A stretch of 45,504 nucleotides of DNA, from positions 1 through 45,504 of the forward strand of contig JAGWWI010000005.1 in assembly GCA_018970465.1 (NCBI GenBank), given 5' to 3'. The notes under the pieces are model-generated. The model was not told the DNA's origin. It ran no database searches and was given only the letters and a program-made list of their open reading frames with translations. Below, one piece after another: positions 76 through 8,293 of this stretch (its first letter is position 1; the number at the start of each line of letters is the position of its first letter). The position numbers and the translations under genes were made by a program. This DNA comes from Patescibacteria group bacterium. Its GTDB lineage: Bacteria > Patescibacteriota > Minisyncoccia > Phycocordibacterales > Phycocordibacteraceae.

Positions 76-942
76 TCAATAGCTTGGAATCGCTTTAAGC
101 ATTTCTGCAGGAGTTTTGCAGTCGATGCCCATATGCGGCCGCTCAGTGTTGTACCACTCACAGAAAACCGGAATATCTGCTGGGATGTGCATGGAGAATC
201 CTTCCTTTGGCATCTCCTCCTGCAGAGTTCGATTAAATCGTTCCAGATGGCCGTTCTCATTCGGTGAGCGTGGGTGGTTGTGGCGGTGCAACACACCACG
301 GCGCTTCACATGATCGGTGAACCATGTCTTGAACTCCGGACCATTGTCGGTTTGAATTGTTTCAATACGGAAAGAGAAATACCGTCGTGTCTTGTCGAAG
401 AAGCGGGTTGAGACAACAGCATTGGCTTTGTCGCTCGCCATGGCGTATCCCGTGCGGGAGTACACATCGAGAGCTGTATAGACATATCGTTTGACACCGT
501 CTGCACCAAAAAAGTGAACCGTATCCATCTCCACCAGTGCTCCAGGATGGTCGGCTTCCGGGCGTGGTGGGTACCTCCTCGTCTTCGCCCAGGCACTCTT
601 GCGCTTGAGCGGTGCACAGTACGTGCTGATGATACGCTTGACCGATGAGAGCGAGACAACCACCTCTTCTCGCTTCAAGAGTGCATGTACCACGATGGCA
701 CAGCGCCTGACCTCGAGACGCTTGGCGATGATCTTTGCGCGCAGCTCCGGGGACATCGCCCGAGGAGATTTCTTTGGCACTGGTGACAGGGTGTCTGCGG
801 TCGTGCGATGACTCCACTTCACGATCGCACCTTGGGTGTATCCCAGGTGCCGGGCGACCTTTCTGGTCGACCAGCCCTGTTTCAACAGCTCTCTCGCTTT
901 CCTGCGTACCTCGGGAAGTTTTTCATTGGTTGTGTATGCCAT
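76..942 (-). CDS. IS481-like DDE transposase (N-terminal HTH + integrase core)
   Basis: Protein from internal Met MAYTTNEKLPEVRRKARELLKQGWSTRKVARHLGY; DDE core LVEMDTVHFFGADG...YTALDVYSRTGYA...IQTDNGPEF...NGHLERFNRTLQEE...WYNTERPHMGI. Confidence 0.9.
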   Translation of the reverse strand: MAYTTNEKLPEVRRKARELLKQGWSTRKVARHLGYTQGAIVKWSHRTTADTLSPVPKKSPRAMSPELRAKIIAKRLEVRRCAIVVHALLKREEVVVSLSSVKRIISTYCAPLKRKSAWAKTRRYPPRPEADHPGALVEMDTVHFFGADGVKRYVYTALDVYSRTGYAMASDKANAVVSTRFFDKTRRYFSFRIETIQTDNGPEFKTWFTDHVKRRGVLHRHNHPRSPNENGHLERFNRTLQEEMPKEGFSMHIPADIPVFCEWYNTERPHMGIDCKTPAEMLKAIPSY

Positions 943-983
943 ATGCCTTGGGTGATTCCAAGGTATTGAACCATTACGAGGGC

Positions 984-1011
984 TTGACAAAGTCTGCGGG
1001 TCATGTATACT
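984..1011 (+). promoter_or_regulatory. Sigma70-like promoter TTGACA-N16-TATACT reading into the RNA/ORF array
   Basis: ttgaca at 984-989, tatact at 1006-1011, 16-nt spacer; divergent from the transposase gene. Confidence 0.65.
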
Positions 1012-1062
1012 GCTGGCATTCGATAGTTGATCCTTGGAAGCGGGAGAAGAAGACAATCTTTA

Positions 1063-1136
1063 GAGGAGAGAGTCTTGAGCGGCCGAACGGCCCTCAACGC
1101 AACCAATCGGTCCAGAACAGGCGATTGGCTCTCCTC
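1063..1136 (+). ncRNA. Three-way-junction-like structured element near the 5' end of the array
   Basis: Closing helix GAGGAGAG(1063-1070)/CTCTCCTC(1129-1136) encloses TTGAGcGGCCgaacGGCCcTCAA (1075-1097) and CCAATCG(1103-1109)/CGATTGG(1122-1128). Confidence 0.5.
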
Positions 1137-1550
1137 GAGAGCTAGTCGCCTTTTTCGTTGGTAGAAGCCGGTCGGCGAGAGCAGCATATTGATTGCGTCG
1201 CCACCGCCTTCTCTCAGAGAAAGAGAGGTGTACATCCGAGGTCAGCCCGTCGTCGCACAAGGCTATGGCAGGGCACAGTGAGGACATCGGTTGCCGGGGA
1301 GGACGTAAACCACCCTCGCCGGCAAAAATGTCCTCGCAGAAGGGGAAGACGCTTGACACACGCATAGGCAGAACAGGAGTACGCGGAACAATGCTCCCGC
1401 AAGGGACGACCGCAATGTAATTCCTCTTCTCCGGCAGGATGGCCGCGCGAGGTTGCCGACACTACCGCGCACTCGCCGCCATCGTGCTGGAAGGAGGGCT
1501 CACATGTCGTGACCCGTGCCCGCTCCGGCGGAAAAAGAGAGGAAACAAAA

Positions 1551-1742
1551 ATGCTGCAGATTAGCACTCATACGTCCCGTCAGCTCGAAGCCCAGGCGAC
1601 CAAGTTTTTGGTCGCGCATGGCGCCTCGCCAGACGGGCGGTCACTGGACACGTTCGATCGCCGCCAGGCGACGTTCGAACGCCGGTTGGCGTTCGCCGCA
1701 GTCCGTGGGGCCGCTGACTTCTTGGTGGCCGAAGAAGAGTAG
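1551..1742 (+). CDS. Hypothetical protein, array ORF1
   Basis: MLQISTHTSRQLEAQATKFLVAHGASPDGRSLDTFDRRQATFERRLAFAAVRGAADFLVAEEE; hairpin-rich coding sequence (GCGACCAAgtttTTGGTCGC, CGAACGCCggttGGCGTTCG). Confidence 0.45.
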   Translation: MLQISTHTSRQLEAQATKFLVAHGASPDGRSLDTFDRRQATFERRLAFAAVRGAADFLVAEEE

Positions 1743-1788
1743 CGTATTTCGGGAGAGCAGAGCTCCCAAGTCAATTCTCCGCGAGAGT

Positions 1789-1883
1789 GGCGAGGCAGCG
1801 ATTGGTTATCGTTGTTGTCGCCGCCCCTCTTGAGTTCATCATCGCGTATGATGGGTTCAAGAGGGGAATGTGCGCAAGCACAT
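1789..1883 (+). ncRNA. Repeated three-hairpin leader RNA, copy 1
   Basis: H1 GGCGA..AGCGAT/ATCGTT..TCGCC; H2 CCCCTCTTGA-gtt-CATCAT/ATGATG-ggt-TCAAGAGGGG; H3 ATGTGC-gcaa-GCACAT. Confidence 0.75.
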
Positions 1884-1971
1884 GAACCTGAACTTCTTCC
1901 CAGACGAGCGATGGTCGCTGTCTGGTTATGTTCAACAAGCCGTATGGATGCCTGTGGGCACACGGTTAGAG

Positions 1972-2499
1972 ATGGAGTTCGAAATGTTCAAAGGCATGCT
2001 GACCATCGACATGGCCGAGGGCGCCGGGATCGCCTGGGCCGCGCAGGCCCGTGCAACTTTCGCGGATGCCTGGGCGGATGCCCAGGCGCTCCGGGTCGCG
2101 CCCTACGAAAAGGGCGTACCAGGCGTCCAGCCCGTCGAGGACATCTCGGCAGGGGCTCGGTACTTCGGCTTCGCGATCGCCGACGGGATGTTCCCGTCCG
2201 GTTGCAACGCCGTTCGCCGGGCGCTTTCGGTTGAGGAGGTTACGAGCCTTCTCGCCGAACCGTTTGTCTCGTGCTGCAATCCGCAGCACCGGACGAGCCT
2301 CGATGCGGCGCGTCGCCGATTCGGCCTCGAGATCCCGGTGCCCGAAAAAGCACAGATGGTCTCGCTCAAGGCCGGCGACGAAGTCGTCGTCATGAGCGTT
2401 CGCGGCCTGCCTCGGCTCGAGGAAAATCGTCACGAGTATACCGAAGAGGAGATCGCGCGAGCGACCTTCGTCTTCGGCCTCTGGACGGTCGTCTCATAG
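1972..2499 (+). CDS. DUF1874 / STIV B116-like protein (AcrIII-1/Crn2 ring-nuclease superfamily), array ORF2
   Basis: C-terminal part ALSVEEVTSLLAEPFVSCCNPQHRTSLDAARRRFGLEIPVPEKAQMVSLKAGDEVVVMSVRGLPRLEENRHEYTEEEIARATFVFGLW follows the family pattern FVS..H..T...L....G.E.PV......L..GD..VV......LP......T.EE.....F.FGL. Start chosen at the Met after the leader (ORF open from 1870). Confidence 0.6.
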   Translation: MEFEMFKGMLTIDMAEGAGIAWAAQARATFADAWADAQALRVAPYEKGVPGVQPVEDISAGARYFGFAIADGMFPSGCNAVRRALSVEEVTSLLAEPFVSCCNPQHRTSLDAARRRFGLEIPVPEKAQMVSLKAGDEVVVMSVRGLPRLEENRHEYTEEEIARATFVFGLWTVVS

Positions 2500-2516
2500 T
2501 TCTTTCTAAGGGCCTG

Positions 2517-2609
2517 ATGGGGAGCCTGACTATAAATCCCCATGCCTTTTGAGCACAGGATCATACAACGTGATCGTGGATTCAAAAGGAATGTGTGCAA
2601 GCACATTCC
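2517..2609 (+). ncRNA. Repeated three-hairpin leader RNA, copy 2
   Basis: H1 ATGGGGA/TCCCCAT; H2 CCTTTTGA-gca-...-gat-TCAAAAGG (compensatory C-G to T-A versus copy 1); H3 GGAATGTG/CACATTCC. Confidence 0.75.
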
Positions 2610-2739
2610 CGTTCAACGCCTTTTTCTTCCGGCGAAGTGGAGGACCTCATTGGCCAGGCGAGCGATGGTCGCTGCTTGGCTACGTGCAACAAGCCGTGGG
2701 GTGCGCAAGGCGCACGCGGCTAAATCGGGAGTGTGAGTA

Positions 2740-3147
2740 ATGAAGATAGAAGAAATTCGGGCCGCTTGCATCACGGCTGGTTTTGGGGAAGAGGAGGTAG
2801 CGGACAGCATCCGCTACACTCTCACGGAAACGCCTGACGGGGCATCGATGACTACGGGTGACCGGCTTGACCTCGTGCCCGTCACCACGGACGAGCTCGG
2901 AGCCGTCTTGGCTCGGGCGGCCCAGGTCGGCTTTGCCGAGGCCTGGACGGAACTCGTCGAGACCCGCATCTACGGCAGCCTCGAGGCTGCCGACGCTGCC
3001 AAGCATCAGGCGGCGGCAGACGTAGCCGCGTACGAAGCGGCCGTGGCCAACGGCACCCACGTGCCGTTTGGTGGCTACCACATCAACCGGCCGGCAGAGC
3101 GCGGGCGGTTGGAGGACCTCGGCCATCTGGGGGGCCACCGCGATTAA
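2740..3147 (+). CDS. Hypothetical protein, array ORF3
   Basis: MKIEEIRAACITAGFGEEEVADSIRYTLTETPDG..., preceded by gggag; contains perfect palindrome GGCAGCCTCGAGGCTGCC. Confidence 0.6.
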   Translation: MKIEEIRAACITAGFGEEEVADSIRYTLTETPDGASMTTGDRLDLVPVTTDELGAVLARAAQVGFAEAWTELVETRIYGSLEAADAAKHQAAADVAAYEAAVANGTHVPFGGYHINRPAERGRLEDLGHLGGHRD

Positions 3148-3175
3148 CCCCGACCTCAAGCAGGACAAGTTCTTT

Positions 3176-3316
3176 CGCCCGCGAGCGCGGCAATGCGCTC
3201 GCGGGCGGAGCGAGACCTCCGCTTACATGGTCTCGGATGGCGTCGACCTCGGTCGGCGCCCCATCTTGAGCGCATCATTTTCGAATGGTGAATTCAAGAG
3301 GGGAGGACGCCTCTCG
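3176..3316 (+). ncRNA. Extended structured leader: duplicated 5' module + three-hairpin leader copy 3
   Basis: CGCCCGCGAGCGC/GCGCTCGCGGGCG 13-bp hairpin; CGAGACC/GGTCTCG; H1 GGCGTCGACC/GGTCGGCGCC; H2 CCATCTTGA-gcg-CATCATTT/GAATGGTG-aat-TCAAGAGG; H3 GGGAGG/CCTCTC. Confidence 0.8.
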
Positions 3317-3507
3317 TTGGTCTGGTGACCTAAGGGGCCCTTGTGCCCGGCGAGTGTTTTTGCATCCTCTCCGACCTACCGCAAGAGAGCGGATTACGGC
3401 CCGCGTGTACCTCGCAACGAGGAGCGCGGTAATGTTCAACAGGAGTCGCGATGGGCCAGAGCGCCGCGCGGTTCCATAGTGCCCTAATGGGGCGAAGGAC
3501 GCGAGAA

Positions 3508-3984
3508 ATGACGATGACGAAGATCCGTGGTATTTTCATGCGATTCGCAGGTCAAGACGGCCTCGAGACCGCGTTGTACGCGGTTGCCGAGGCGTTCGGG
3601 TCGCTCGGCGGCGGCGGGTCATGCGCCCGCCACGCCGACGAGGCGCTCCGGCGCCGCATCGCATCGGCGGTTGCCGCCGCCGCCGTGGGCAACGGCAGCC
3701 TCCGGGCGGTCCGAGACGCTTTACAGGCGGCGGTGCCGCGCTGCGAGTGGGCCGCCGCCGTCACGGCGGAGGTCGAGAAGAACGGGGTGGTCCACCTGGC
3801 GGTGGTCACCTCAATGGGAAGTGCCGTGCGGGTAACGCACGGCGACTCGGGCGACGCCGAAATCTTCGTAGATTTCGGCGTCGCCGGCAGTGCGCGGCGA
3901 GCAGAGCTAACGCTCGCGGCGATCGAGCGGGAGGGCATTACGCCCTCTCGGATCGTCCGCTTGCCGCAGTATGTGGTTCTTTAA
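3508..3984 (+). CDS. Hypothetical protein, array ORF4
   Basis: MTMTKIRGIFMRFAGQDGLETALYAVAEAFGS...; contains 12-bp perfect hairpin GACGCCGAAATC/GATTTCGGCGTC. Confidence 0.55.
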   Translation: MTMTKIRGIFMRFAGQDGLETALYAVAEAFGSLGGGGSCARHADEALRRRIASAVAAAAVGNGSLRAVRDALQAAVPRCEWAAAVTAEVEKNGVVHLAVVTSMGSAVRVTHGDSGDAEIFVDFGVAGSARRAELTLAAIEREGITPSRIVRLPQYVVL

Positions 3985-4014
3985 CAGGCTGAGATTGCCT
4001 GGCTATAAAATCTC

Positions 4015-4101
4015 GGGGCGAGCGCGTGATTCAACCAACGCGCTCGCCTCCCTGACTGGGCCCATTGCGATGGGAATTCGCGGTGGACCCTGAGGGGAGA
4101 A
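4015..4101 (+). ncRNA. Duplicated structured module II, copy a
   Basis: GGCGAGCGCGT/ACGCGCTCGCC hairpin followed by near-invariant cctccctgactgggcccattgcgatgggaattcgcggtgg and ..ctgaggggagaa. Confidence 0.7.
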
Positions 4102-4235
4102 GGAAACATGCTTTGAATTCGAGCGCCAGAGCGGCGCGGGGATACAAGTGGCTCTCAGCGCCGGCAGCTGCACGTGTCGGGGAAACGTCGCTGCGGGGCG
4201 CATACCGCAGCAAACCACAAGACGAAGGAGGAACC

Positions 4236-4283
4236 ATGTTCCCATACCTCTGGCCGATAGGGCATGGTCCCAAGCGATTATGA
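4236..4283 (+). CDS. Putative 15-aa micro-ORF MFPYLWPIGHGPKRL
   Basis: Strong Shine-Dalgarno gaaggagg 5 nt before ATG; TGA stop; lies between module II and leader copy 4. Confidence 0.35.
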   Translation: MFPYLWPIGHGPKRL

Positions 4284-4311
4284 CCCCCTGTCCATCATAC
4301 AGGCCAAACTT

Positions 4312-4394
4312 GGCGCCGCTACGCGGCGCCCCTTCTTGAGCACACGATCATGCGATCGCGGATTCAAGAAGGGAGATTGCATGGTGCAACTCCC
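4312..4394 (+). ncRNA. Repeated three-hairpin leader RNA, copy 4
   Basis: H1 GGCGCCGC-tac-GCGGCGCC; H2 CCTTCTTGA-gca-...-gat-TCAAGAAGG; H3 GGGAG-a-TTGCA-tgg-TGCAA-CTCCC. Confidence 0.8.
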
Positions 4395-4466
4395 TGTCTG
4401 CCTTCGGGCAGGCGTGGCTGCGAGCCACATAACCTCGAAGTCGCTGCGAGCGGCAAGGAGCGCAAG

Positions 4467-4913
4467 ATGCAGATTCGTAAGATAGGTTCGGCTGGTTCAA
4501 TTCAGGGCACGGATCATTTCGATCCGTGGTGCCTGACCGTCCGGGCCATGGATTTGGCCCCGGATGTGACCTGGATCGGCCTCGCCGGCCTCGGCGAGCA
4601 ATGGAAAGGGTCCCGAGTAATCGGGACCGTCCAAGGGAATGGCGACCGGGTCATGTGCCCGGCGCACACGCCGTTGGAGGTAGTGAATTACCTCCAGATC
4701 CACCTGGAGATCGTATTCACTCGCTGGGCGGGCGTGAGGAACGAAGAGGATGCTCCCCAGCATCCTCTAGACTGCCTGTCGCCCCGCTATGGGGCGATAT
4801 TCGAGGAGGAGTCCGGCGGCAAGCGTCGCTGGATCATCGTGACCGGCCACCCGCATTCGCAGGAAACCGCGAATGCGGCCGCACAGATCGCGGTCACTCG
4901 GATGGGGGAGTAA
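4467..4913 (+). CDS. Hypothetical protein, array ORF5
   Basis: MQIRKIGSAGSIQGTDHFDPWCLTVRAMDLAPDV..., SD aaggag; coding sequence is a near-continuous run of hairpins. Confidence 0.6.
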   Translation: MQIRKIGSAGSIQGTDHFDPWCLTVRAMDLAPDVTWIGLAGLGEQWKGSRVIGTVQGNGDRVMCPAHTPLEVVNYLQIHLEIVFTRWAGVRNEEDAPQHPLDCLSPRYGAIFEEESGGKRRWIIVTGHPHSQETANAAAQIAVTRMGE

Positions 4914-4914
4914 A

Positions 4915-5319
4915 ATGGAGGACCACGACTTCAGGACTTTGAGAGCCCTGATATGCGGTAGAGACGACCCCGTCTCTACCGCAGTACGTGTCTACGTAGA
5001 CACGTACTGGTACTCCCTCGAACGGGGGGCCGAAAATGCCTACAAGGATGTCTTCCTCCCCTGGTGGGACGCCGAAGCGACGTCCCACGGCGGGTGGTGG
5101 TCGCCAGCTGCGCTGGCGGTCTCCGCGATAGCCGGCTCCGGGGCAGGGTACCCCCATGCTGCCGTAATGACGGCAGCATGGTTTCCCGAGTACTTTGCCC
5201 GGGAGGCCACGGAACTGGTGGTCTCGTACATCCTGGGAGAAAAGGATGTGCGAGATCGTCTAAACCCAGACAGTCCCTACAATAAGAGACGTCTGGGGAG
5301 AAGCCCGATGGACGGGTGA
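4915..5319 (+). CDS. Hypothetical protein, array ORF6 (translationally coupled to ORF5)
   Basis: MEDHDFRTLRALICGRDDPVSTAVRVYVDTYWYSLERG...; starts 1 nt after the ORF5 stop. Confidence 0.55.
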   Translation: MEDHDFRTLRALICGRDDPVSTAVRVYVDTYWYSLERGAENAYKDVFLPWWDAEATSHGGWWSPAALAVSAIAGSGAGYPHAAVMTAAWFPEYFAREATELVVSYILGEKDVRDRLNPDSPYNKRRLGRSPMDG

Positions 5320-5345
5320 CTCCGCTCTTGGGCACGTTCTTTCAT

Positions 5346-5486
5346 CCGCGAGCGCGGCAGCGCGCTCGCGGGCGGACACGAGACCTCCGCTCACACGGTC
5401 TTGGAAAGGCATCGGCTCTGCCGGTGTCCCATCTTGAGCGCTTCAGCCGCGGTTGGAGAATTCAAGAGGGGATGTGCAATCCTCTC
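5346..5486 (+). ncRNA. Extended structured leader: duplicated 5' module + three-hairpin leader copy 5
   Basis: CCGCGAGCGC/GCGCTCGCGG; CGAGACC/GGTCTTG; H1 GGCATCGGC/GCCGGTGTC; H2 CCATCTTGA-gcg-CTTCAGCC/GGTTGGAG-aat-TCAAGAGG; H3 GAGGGGAT/ATCCTCTC. Confidence 0.8.
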
Positions 5487-5489
5487 CCG

Positions 5490-5984
5490 ATGGCGGTGGA
5501 GTCATCGAGGTACACAGAAGGGCCGCCGTGGGCGGCAAACAAAATGATCAATCTGTTGTTCGACGTTGGCTGTGCTGCGCGGCGGACGAAAGACTTCGAG
5601 GTTGCGAACGCCGTGTTCGCAATCATTTTCGACTGGATGTGTGGGGGTCCAGAAATCTCGAAGGTGGATTCGAGCGATTTCGAAGATCGCTCTCTCATAG
5701 AAATTAAATATGAGACCGATAACGATTACCGGGACGAAGGGGCCTACTACGATCTTCTCAGCCTGATCTGGGGGGATCGGAGACTTGCGATCCCCGTCCC
5801 GCTCCTCACAAGAGCGGCGCTGATCGTTGCTTTGCGGCAGGGGGCTGTCCCTGTACAGAAGGGAGACTACCCTTCGGGCGCTGCGCCAGGGGGTGTTGAT
5901 GAAGACACTACGCCCGACGACTGGGCGCTCATACGGTGGCTTGGGGGAGTGCCCGACTGGGTATTACTGCCCCAGACCATCTGA
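5490..5984 (+). CDS. Hypothetical protein, array ORF7
   Basis: MAVESSRYTEGPPWAANKMINLLFDVGCAARRTKDFEVANAVFAIIFDWMCGGPEISKV...; alternative start at 5544. Confidence 0.5.
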   Translation: MAVESSRYTEGPPWAANKMINLLFDVGCAARRTKDFEVANAVFAIIFDWMCGGPEISKVDSSDFEDRSLIEIKYETDNDYRDEGAYYDLLSLIWGDRRLAIPVPLLTRAALIVALRQGAVPVQKGDYPSGAAPGGVDEDTTPDDWALIRWLGGVPDWVLLPQTI

Positions 5985-5993
5985 CAATCTCTT

Positions 5994-6080
5994 GGGGCGA
6001 GCGTGTGGTTCAACCCATGCGTTCGCCTCCCTGACTGGGCCCATTGCGATGGGAATTCGCGGTGGGTCCTGAGGGGAGAA
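5994..6080 (+). ncRNA. Duplicated structured module II, copy b
   Basis: GGCGAGCGTGTG/CATGCGTTCGCC hairpin (wobble-preserving changes versus copy a) plus the same cctccctgactgggcccattgcgatgggaattcgcggtgg block. Confidence 0.7.
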
Positions 6081-6262
6081 AAATTGTTTCGATGACAGTA
6101 CCAGTTCCAGGGGTGGGGCGAGTGCCTTATCAAACCGCCTCCTGGGATAGATATGGAAAATCCCGCCATATCGAATCTAGGGTAGGGTTCAGTGTCCCTG
6201 GAGAGACACAGCGCGTCGATAAAGTCATCTATAGCGCCCAGGTCTCCAAAACACCACTCAGT

Positions 6263-6342
6263 GGCGATTGTCTCCGGATAATCGCCGCTCCTTTTGAGCG
6301 CATCATGGCAATGGTGAATTCAAGAGGGGGATGGGCGATCCC
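6263..6342 (+). ncRNA. Repeated three-hairpin leader RNA, copy 6
   Basis: H1 GGCGATT/AATCGCC; H2 CTCCTTTTGA-gcg-CATCAT/ATGGTG-aat-TCAAGAGGGG; H3 GGGAT/ATCCC; no convincing downstream ORF. Confidence 0.7.
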
Positions 6343-6488
6343 TGATAAGCCCCTGCGGGGCTGTGGGCTGTGGCTGGTGCGGGGCGGCGGGCGTGAGAAA
6401 AAACTCTCTCCTCTAACCGCTTGGCGCCCCCGCAGCTGCGGCCCGTAGCCCCGCGGGGAGTTATCTGGGTGAAATGGTGAATACAAGA

Positions 6489-6521
6489 GAAACCGCCGCG
6501 GCCTTTGGCCGCGGCGGTTTC
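6489..6521 (+). terminator. Array-terminating hairpin (possibly bidirectional)
   Basis: GAAACCGCCGCGGCC-ttt-GGCCGCGGCGGTTTC, perfect 15-bp stem. Confidence 0.7.
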
Positions 6522-6539
6522 TGCATCTATTCGCCTACG

Positions 6540-7490
6540 CTATTCTACCGTGATCGTCGCGCTTGCGGAGTCGCCCGCCGCCGCGCCCGTGAACGTGTAG
6601 GTGTAGGTGCCGGGCGTCGTCGGGAGCGACAAGGAGCCCGTCGAGAAGTTGCCGCCGCCGTCGGCGTGCGCCGAAGCGACCTGCTGCCCGTCGAGCATTA
6701 CCGAGACCTGCTCCTCGTGGCCGAAGTTATGCCCGCCGAAGTCGATCGACCCGCCCGCCGAGAAGGTCCCGCCGTTCTGGTCGATCATCGCTGCCTCCTG
6801 CGGCGAACCGCTGCCGGTCGTCGTCGAGCCCGGGCCGAGGAGTTCGTTGATGAGCCCCTGCAGCACGCCCGCGAACGAGGGATAGGTATTCGCGAGGCTT
6901 TGGAGCTGCGCGACCAGATTGTCGAGATCAGAAGGGGGCGTCGTCGTGCCGGTGCCCGAGCCGGTCGAGGTCGCCGTCGTCGTGCCCGTCCCGCCCGCCG
7001 CTGCTATGGTGAAGCTCGCGAAGGGGGAGCCGGCGAGACCCGGGAAGACGACGCGATAGCCGCCTGCCGCGACGGGCGAACTCGAGGCGTCCGTCGTGCT
7101 CCCGTCCCACATATCGGCGAAGAAGGTTGTCGAGGACGCGTTCTCGTCAAGCGTCCCGGCTGCGGGCGTGAATACCGGCGTCCCGGAGGCGTCCGTGATC
7201 TGCCACGGGTGCGTCCCCGCCATCGTCAGCGGCGTCCCCGTCGCGTCGGTGAGGCAGAAGGATACTGCCATGCCCTCGGTATAGTCGGACATGTCGGTCG
7301 CGACGGCGTAGCCGCCGCTTGAAGACGCCGTCTCCATGCTTGGGCAATAGGCCGGAGCCGTAGATGAAGCCGAACTTGAACTTGTCGTTGTTGCCGTATC
7401 TGCGGCCGCGATTGGCACTGCACTGCTTAGGGTAAAGAGTGCCGCTGCGGCGAGCGCGCCGAGACCCGAGACTACTTGTTTCGTGGTCAT
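6540..7490 (-). CDS. Secreted/surface hypothetical protein with Ig-like C-terminal domain
   Basis: Signal peptide MTTKQVVSGLGALAAAALFTLSSAVPIAAADT; Ser/Thr/Gly-rich linker; C-terminal GGHNFGHEEQVSVMLDGQQ...TYTYTFTGAAAGDSASATITVE. Confidence 0.65.
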   Translation of the reverse strand: MTTKQVVSGLGALAAAALFTLSSAVPIAAADTATTTSSSSASSTAPAYCPSMETASSSGGYAVATDMSDYTEGMAVSFCLTDATGTPLTMAGTHPWQITDASGTPVFTPAAGTLDENASSTTFFADMWDGSTTDASSSPVAAGGYRVVFPGLAGSPFASFTIAAAGGTGTTTATSTGSGTGTTTPPSDLDNLVAQLQSLANTYPSFAGVLQGLINELLGPGSTTTGSGSPQEAAMIDQNGGTFSAGGSIDFGGHNFGHEEQVSVMLDGQQVASAHADGGGNFSTGSLSLPTTPGTYTYTFTGAAAGDSASATITVE

Positions 7491-7624
7491 CGCCCGCCAC
7501 TCTACCGGCCGGCCGATTAACGGCAGGTGAATTGGTGAAGGACGATAGAGAATAGGGGGTAATTTTTGAATGAGCACGCTCGTTAGCGCTAAGTGGCACT
7601 AGGCCAAATGCTAGGATATATGAA

Positions 7625-8293
7625 GTGGCGCTTATAGCTTCGCTCAATTTCCCAAAGAAAAGCCACCGAAAGGAAGTACGGCTACCCCAACCATCCGCCC
7701 GGCTTGCAGAATTCATCGGTATCATGATGGGGGATGGAGGCATAAATAATTCATGGCAGGCAACCATTACGATAAATGCGATTGCCGACGCGGCGTATGC
7801 AGCGTACATCCACGCGCTGTGCCTAGAGCTTTTCGGCATCGCGCCCGCCATGCGTAAGCGCAAGGGGCGCCAAGCGCTCGTCCTTTCTCTGGCCAGCACG
7901 ACGGTGGTAGATTTCCTGGTCTCCAAGGGCCTTTGTCGTGGCAACAAACTCGCCCAGGGCCTCGCTATGCCCGGGTGGATCCTTGCAGACCCCATACTCC
8001 AGAGAGCGTGTGTGCGGGGGTTGGTCGATACTGATGGATGCCTGTTCATTCACAGACATGCCGTGCGCGGGAAAATGTATAGGAATCTCGGCCTCTGTTA
8101 TTCGAGCGCATCACCGACGCTTTTACAACAAGTCGCCAGCGCGTTTGAAAAAAATGGCATTGTGGCGCATATTGATAAAAGATGCCGGAATATCTATCTC
8201 TATAGGCAAGCGGCCGTCGCAGCATACTTAGAGATATTTGGGACATCGAACGACCGTATCTCGGGTGTGTATAAAAAATGGAGAGGTGGCTGA
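7625..8293 (+). CDS. LAGLIDADG-type homing endonuclease-like protein
   Basis: LAEFIGIMMGDGGI and ACVRGLVDTDGCLFI motifs; GTG start, stop lies inside the tRNA-Ser gene. Confidence 0.8.
   Translation: MALIASLNFPKKSHRKEVRLPQPSARLAEFIGIMMGDGGINNSWQATITINAIADAAYAAYIHALCLELFGIAPAMRKRKGRQALVLSLASTTVVDFLVSKGLCRGNKLAQGLAMPGWILADPILQRACVRGLVDTDGCLFIHRHAVRGKMYRNLGLCYSSASPTLLQQVASAFEKNGIVAHIDKRCRNIYLYRQAAVAAYLEIFGTSNDRISGVYKKWRGG

Follow-up and report, generated by a model that had tools for sequence, protein, structure and literature searches.

Sporadic operons with conserved RNA ends and folded coding regions in an order of Patescibacteria

What kind of locus is a run of small genes, all on one strand, in which copies of one structured RNA stand 5' of the genes? 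The question is raised by positions 1020-6530 of the 45,504-nucleotide (nt) stretch analyzed here, called the window (contig JAGWWI010000005.1, Patescibacteria group bacterium, assembly GCA_018970465.1). The modular single-strand array that a first-pass annotation described there is right, and the region belongs to a family of loci that occur sporadically within one Patescibacteria order. The members, termed elements below, are operons in which a variable set of small genes is enclosed by a conserved RNA module at either end. That the family exists, has conserved ends and is under dual selection, for protein and for RNA structure, can be stated jointly with high confidence. No published description of such gene clusters was found in the literature. 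The Patescibacteria hosting them are tiny and probably symbiotic.

The window element is present as a single copy in its own genome. A DNA search across 59 relatives gave one match only, a weak one in a congener (G006), where the same element type with the same ends carries different genes. Another member (G087) was found by a covariance model of the 5' hairpins (model R1), and the exact 14-mer of the 5' motif, run against 398 genomes of the order, led to 10 more loci, all of which have an element end. When 85,462 species were scanned, three loci with promoter and 5' motif (P065, P067 and P068) were added, and the matches were almost all labelled Patescibacteria or Parcubacteria. Those labelled Flavobacteriaceae, Bacteroidetes and Ignatzschineria lack the promoter and were rejected as chance; one labelled Armatimonadota is a 1.7-kb contig carrying promoter and 5' motif, probably misbinned. 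Model R2, which describes the P3-P4 region of the leader, matched 19 of the 398 genomes of the order versus 2 of 388 in a class-wide sample. The loci in G247, G461 and G380 were found with it and are members by leader only, because G247 has no clear 5' motif in the fetched stretch and none of the three has its 3' end covered. Among the weak R1 matches, G470 proved to be a real member and G342 is a candidate. Matches of the pattern GAAGCCGGTCNNCGAGNGCAG in viral contigs and in G110 and G015 were discarded as coincidences inside coding sequence.

The repeated unit had been described as a leader plus an open reading frame (ORF), which is incomplete. What was missed is that structure runs through the ORFs, which are selected for it as well, and that both ends are modules common to the wider family. 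These end modules define the family better than the inter-ORF repeat.

Selection for RNA structure through the genes

The whole sense-strand RNA of the elements, coding parts included, is selected for secondary structure. Computed over 120-nt segments, the mean folding z is -2.36 over 1021-6530 (59% below -2) versus -0.20 (7%) in the rest of the window; the excess starts directly after the promoter and ends at the closing hairpin. The lowest 1.2-kb mean across about 298 kb of the element's own genome is -1.69, compared with -3.66 in the element. Synonymous codons were shuffled within each ORF to separate selection on the protein from selection on the RNA. The resulting z is -4.1 to -6.4 for the window ORFs at 1972, 3508, 4467, 4915 and 5544 and about -1.4 for ORF1 and ORF3. 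In relatives, it reaches -9.2 for a MoxR ATPase gene, -6.1 for a VWA gene and -5.9 for a Csx3-AAA gene. For ordinary genes of the window it ranges from +0.4 to -1.7, except for LepA (-3.6). The number of shuffles was low (20-300), as was the size of several alignments.

The six inter-ORF hairpins noted at first reading are real and show compensatory changes. Aligned with one further copy from another genome (G427), they have 95% of cells paired and 5 of 15 pairs changed on both sides; covariation is 0.305, compared with 0.130 in shuffled alignments (0/500) and 0.02-0.17 in slid registers. Neither a lack of covariation nor confinement to one locus was thus found. A decaying repeat or a set of pseudogenes is ruled out by the codon-shuffle folding excess together with the hairpin covariation.

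The element ORFs are real genes, because recognizable enzymes are encoded in relatives and ORF2 is conserved with a codon-position bias: over 110 residues it is 68% identical to an ORF of G427, and the differences fall 27/25/51 on the three codon positions. The same observations rule out a purely non-coding giant RNA. GOLLD, ROOL and OLE are likewise long structured bacterial RNAs with conserved modules, but those RNAs are non-coding.

The sense strand is more stably folded than the antisense strand in 9 of 9 elements, and the flanks are nearly symmetric, which speaks for hairpins of RNA rather than of DNA. This bears on the idea that the hairpins act as folded single-stranded DNA in mobility, like integron attC sites or the ends of IS200/IS605. 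Such a DNA-level element would suit the modular cassettes, the duplicated units, the sporadic presence and an empty site at the G231 locus, where one congener has an intergenic space of about 40 bp and other congeners carry unrelated inserts. A strand preference of this kind is, however, expected of RNA with its G-U pairs, promoter, boxA and hammerhead are RNA features, and no recombinase was seen inside the elements. We regard the DNA-level explanation as highly improbable. As for the earlier suggestion of a mobile element, its support is limited to the sporadic presence and the empty site in a congener; no recombinase was seen inside the elements, and no target duplication was noticed.

Near the G006 element, outside its ends, lies a small orphan gene with strong in-frame hairpins (L009, 540-180, minus strand).

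Leader, end motifs and the comparison with rRNA

In complete loci, the order is promoter, GACAATCTTTAGAGGAGAGAGTC, hairpins A and B, a boxA-like TTGACAANTGAATAGGC, P3-P4, genes, an optional hammerhead, ACTCTCTCCTCTAA and often a terminator. One to seven small genes lie between the end modules, and in multi-gene elements the leader hairpins are repeated between the genes. The leader, of about 0.4 kb, contains the invariant UUUAGAGGAGAGAGU, the exact complement of which lies in the 3' module; the 14-nt end motifs of complete elements are exact complements and nearly invariant. In about 8 of 14 elements, the loop of hairpin A is a competing partner of the 5' motif.

The boxA-like pattern TTGA[AC]A-ATA occurs in 10 of 14 modules (shuffled mean 0.34, maximum 3). 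Moreover, it lies 55-101 nt 5' of P4 in 9 of 13 P3-P4 matches, 12 of which were not used for training a model that itself contains no boxA. The ribosomal RNA (rRNA) leaders of three hosts carry a similar CTTTGACAAC-ATA or CTTTGAAAATTAAAA, and a UUGUUCC/GGAACAA leader-trailer motif is present in four hosts and in the element leader. The boxA and the leader-trailer helix of E. coli function in antitermination and 30S biogenesis (PMC10250234). Like this bacterial rrn leader, the elements have a boxA-like sequence 3' of leader hairpins, complementary ends, the UUGUUCC/GGAACAA motif in common with the flanks of their hosts' 16S genes, and, by prediction, a long, highly folded transcript. In contrast, they enclose protein genes, their end motifs are invariant and do not covary, the rRNA-like motif stands in permuted order, and an extra conserved P4 hairpin and sometimes a hammerhead are present. 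On balance, an rRNA-like expression of the elements is probable.

In the antitermination of CRISPR arrays and at phage nut sites, a boxA signal acts on a non-rRNA transcript that would otherwise terminate. The elements share with these a boxA-type signal outside rRNA; CRISPR-array and nut RNAs, however, are not over-folded coding messages and have no paired end motifs.

A type III hammerhead was matched in four elements, about 100 nt 5' of the 3' motif, with complete CUGAUGA/GAAA cores and scores of 31-41 bits, below the Rfam gathering threshold of 48.5. No other Rfam family matches the elements, and a literature search returned no papers on Patescibacteria with hammerheads. Panhandle ends, the hammerhead and folding through coding regions, as in RNA viruses, recall an RNA replicon or viroid-like agent with a DNA copy. 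Obelisks, viroid-like RNAs and single-stranded RNA phage genomes also combine genome-scale folding with coding, and some have a type III hammerhead. The elements, in contrast, are DNA-encoded, with their own promoter and often a terminator, and the window element is a single chromosomal copy. Nor are they rods closed by two ribozymes, since the hammerhead stands at just one end and the window has none. Furthermore, no replicase or other polymerase was found among the matched cargo, the elements match no viral contig, and a protein search with ORF2 against viral contigs gave no match either. An RNA replicon is hardly probable at all.

Some observations were made around the relatives. The G379 element (L034, 7570-6290, minus strand) contains three nearly identical leader modules of about 190 nt and different sequence, split by small ORFs; leaders look homogenized within an element and differ between elements. 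A tmRNA gene (97 bits; L034, 4387-4802, plus strand) lies about 1.3 kb past its 3' end. Directly 5' of the G427 element (L058, about 7000-7900, plus strand), a second structured array comes with small ORFs of its own, contains a hammerhead core (7826) and lacks the family 3' motif; it is perhaps a second class of such elements.

Cargo, translation start and a possible role

The window proteins had been called orphans. This stands for all but ORF2, which is AcrIII-1/Crn2-like, and ORF7, to which an ORF of the G408 element is distantly related (27% over 116 residues, pairwise E = 3e-9). ORF2 is modelled as an AcrIII-1/Crn2 ring-nuclease fold with putative cA4 cleavage: Foldseek leads to 2x4i, 2j6b, 2j85 and 6scf (E 1e-4 to 1e-2, probability 1.0), from a model with a pLDDT of only 52. 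The Pfam family STIV_B116-like (DUF1874) matches the G427 copy with 16.2 bits, below the cut-off of 26, Csx16 in PADLOC matches the ORF2 family (E = 0.0011 and 0.0085), and the His of NPQH is conserved in the window and G427 copies. Other elements carry Csx3-AAA (G237, AAA part matched, 2.7e-32), Csx15-like (G247, 2.6e-6), Csx20-like (G461, 5.9e-6) and DHH proteins (G380, 0.0017). MoxR-VWA is found in G179, an ART-PolyVal-like protein in G087 and, by motif reading, DnaQ-like exonucleases in G172 and G206, the former without a Pfam match.

Csx16 and Csx20 are ring nucleases specific for cA4 (PMC12409355). The cargo of at least five elements matches AcrIII-1/Crn2, Csx3, Csx15, Csx16 or Csx20, or their folds; different from these known systems, the element versions sit in over-folded operons with no neighbouring cas genes noticed, and their catalysis is putative. 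A theme of cyclic-oligonucleotide (cOA) signalling, the CRISPR alarm that enzymes related to this cargo turn off, is argued from the recurrence of linked families, since the single matches are modest. The elements could instead be ordinary accessory operons with rrn-type antitermination, in which folding does no more than stabilize the message or couple translation, and cOA-related cargo is present by coincidence. The boxA and leader evidence fits such an operon equally well, and the cargo is of various kinds, with MoxR-VWA, ART-like and, by motif, DnaQ-like proteins besides many orphans. It leaves unexplained, however, why only element genes are over-folded in the genome and why cOA-linked families recur among the recognizable cargo. 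We consider an accessory operon unlikely, though it deserves attention.

Translation start is a further peculiarity. The CCUCC anti-Shine-Dalgarno (anti-SD) sequence is kept in 0 of 36 readable 16S tails of the order, and its loss looks order-wide; such loss is in print for a few Parcubacteria, and entries for Wolfebacteria and Campbellbacteria agree (PMC10783764). Across 299 genes of the window's genome, no Shine-Dalgarno (SD) enrichment was found (13% versus 10% shuffled). SD 5-mers, assigned by a mechanical rule, nevertheless precede 15 of 28 element ORFs, compared with 1 of 26 antisense and 18 of 179 host frames, and SD-like sites are found at 21 of 25 element ORFs when starts are hand-picked. 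Some are canonical, e.g., AAGGAGGTGACCG in G179, and the window is the weakest case (1 of 5 ORFs by the strict rule). These sites could pair with the 3' motif of the element itself no less well than with a classic anti-SD. A trans anti-SD hidden in the 16S trailer was rejected, CCTCC-type motifs being no commoner there than in a reversed control. The 16S genes of several element hosts are split or lengthened, as by rRNA introns (L078, L080, L081, L083-L085).

The presence of SDs in element ORFs, in an order whose readable 16S tails lack the anti-SD and with no SD enrichment across the genes of the window's genome, would suit a message that leaves the episymbiont and is translated by the anti-SD-bearing ribosomes of a bacterial partner. 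Folding would protect the RNA outside, and the proteins, effector-like in look, would silence the partner's RNA-triggered cOA alarm. However, no export signal or route is known, the SDs of the window itself are weak, and foreign ribosomes are not required, because the element's 3' motif pairs with the SDs as well as a classic anti-SD does. Export is very unlikely.

What the anatomy described above is for, we infer as follows. Each element would give one polycistronic messenger RNA (mRNA), made and matured like pre-rRNA. The boxA-type leader may load the Nus antitermination machinery, enabling the polymerase to run through the numerous hairpins. Pairing of the invariant 5' and 3' motifs would join the ends of the RNA in a leader-trailer stalk like that of rRNA, the loop of hairpin A being the earlier, competing partner of the 5' motif, and in some members the hammerhead would trim the 3' end. 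Folding would harden the message against single-strand-specific ribonucleases (RNases) and guide-RNA pairing, so that it stays translatable while such RNases act. The cargo (AcrIII-1/Crn2-, Csx15- and Csx20-like, Csx3-AAA, DHH) may interfere with cOA signalling, as a reset or counter-defence operon. Translation would start at the SD-like sites, with the element's own CUCUCUCCUCU 3' motif replacing the missing anti-SD, or with foreign ribosomes. Taken as a whole, this account of an RNase-hardened message with rRNA-like expression and cOA-interfering genes is tentative, slightly more doubtful than probable.

Several points weigh against it. The end-to-end helix is absent from the minimum-energy folds of 6 of 6 whole elements, for which reason the leader-trailer stalk is a proposal only, and forcing the helix costs 4-25 kcal/mol in three elements tested. 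The window's own boxA is degenerate, and an Rfam search of 900-6600 found no hammerhead in the window element. Orphans still make up most of the element ORFs, each of the Crn2, Csx15, Csx20 and DHH matches is modest taken alone, and PADLOC contains defence families only. Csx15 is of uncertain role, and ring-nuclease activity is not confirmed for it (PMC12409355). A scan of the window element's own genome, covering 351 kb (44%), found neither a CRISPR array nor a convincing Cas10. Finally, the boxA, SD and cargo statistics were partly framed after inspection of the data, the boxA and SD patterns being chosen after looking.

If true, the elements would represent a bacterial gene-expression format of which no earlier description was found: coding messages selected for structure throughout, with a leader like that of rRNA, ends that match and, in some members, a ribozyme that cleaves itself. 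They offer testable answers on the transcription of structured polycistrons, the survival of mRNA against defence RNases and translation start in a lineage without the 16S anti-SD. The cOA-linked cargo, if confirmed, would point to counter-defence or reset genes in Patescibacteria.

Layout of the window element

The features of the window element are collected in Table 1. The promoter of the first-pass annotation, TTGACA-N16-TATACT, is read directly at 984-989 and 1006-1011. Its seven short plus-strand ORFs exist, the start given as 5490 being better set at the ATG at 5544. The closing hairpin (6488-6503/6507-6522) is perfect and has 16 bp instead of the 15 bp noted, and a single transcription unit is apparently right, judging from the sequence. 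The duplicated structured modules are also real, with 72-91% identity between copies: 91% for 4011-4101/5990-6080, 87% for 3163-3209/5330-5376, 89% for 3211-3237/5379-5405 and 72% for 1900-1978/2654-2732.

Table 1 Features of the window element, in window coordinates (aa, amino acids; z, codon-shuffle folding z)
Feature	Position	Strand	Remarks
Sigma70-like promoter TTGACA-N16-TATACT	984..1011	+	Read directly; similar promoter 5' of the motif in every other element with 5' end covered
5' motif GACAATCTTTAGAGGAGAGAGTC, 5' strand of proposed leader-trailer stalk	1052..1074	+	1060-1073 exact 14-mer; 14 elements
Leader hairpins A and B	1120..1224	+	Model R1; loop of A complementary to 5' motif
boxA-like TTGACACACGCATA, degenerate in window copy	1353..1366	+	Same position in other elements and host rRNA leaders
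Leader region P3-P4	1381..1506	+	Model R2, 94.9 bits; 10/24 pairs changed on both sides
ORF1, 63 aa, no relative found	1551..1742	+	z -1.3, not significant
Inter-ORF leader hairpin copy 1	1825..1865	+	
ORF2, 175 aa; residues ~62-175 AcrIII-1/Crn2 (DUF1874)/Csx16-like	1972..2499	+	z -4.1
Inter-ORF leader hairpin copy 2	2544..2590	+	
ORF3, 135 aa, orphan	2740..3147	+	z -1.4
Duplicated module III copy 1	3163..3237	+	
Inter-ORF leader hairpin copy 3	3261..3302	+	
ORF4, 158 aa, orphan; contains perfect 16-bp hairpin 3850-3885	3508..3984	+	z -5.3
Duplicated module II copy 1	4011..4101	+	91%
Inter-ORF leader hairpin copy 4	4331..4372	+	
ORF5, 148 aa, orphan	4467..4913	+	z -6.2
ORF6, 134 aa, orphan; contains hairpins 4982-5009 and 5154-5181	4915..5319	+	z -6.4
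Duplicated module III copy 2	5330..5405	+	
Inter-ORF leader hairpin copy 5	5429..5470	+	
ORF7, 146 aa; distant relative in G408 element	5544..5984	+	z -4.3
Duplicated module II copy 2	5990..6080	+	
Inter-ORF leader hairpin copy 6, then no clear ORF	6289..6328	+	
3' motif ACTCTCTCCTCTAA, exact complement of 1060-1073	6403..6416	+	
Perfect 16-bp closing hairpin, likely terminator	6488..6522	+	

Near the contig end, a transposase with an integrase-core look (IS481/IS3-like, by sequence only) occupies 76-1056 on the minus strand and ends just 5' of the element promoter. It is flanked by imperfect inverted repeats at 74-102 and 943-971.

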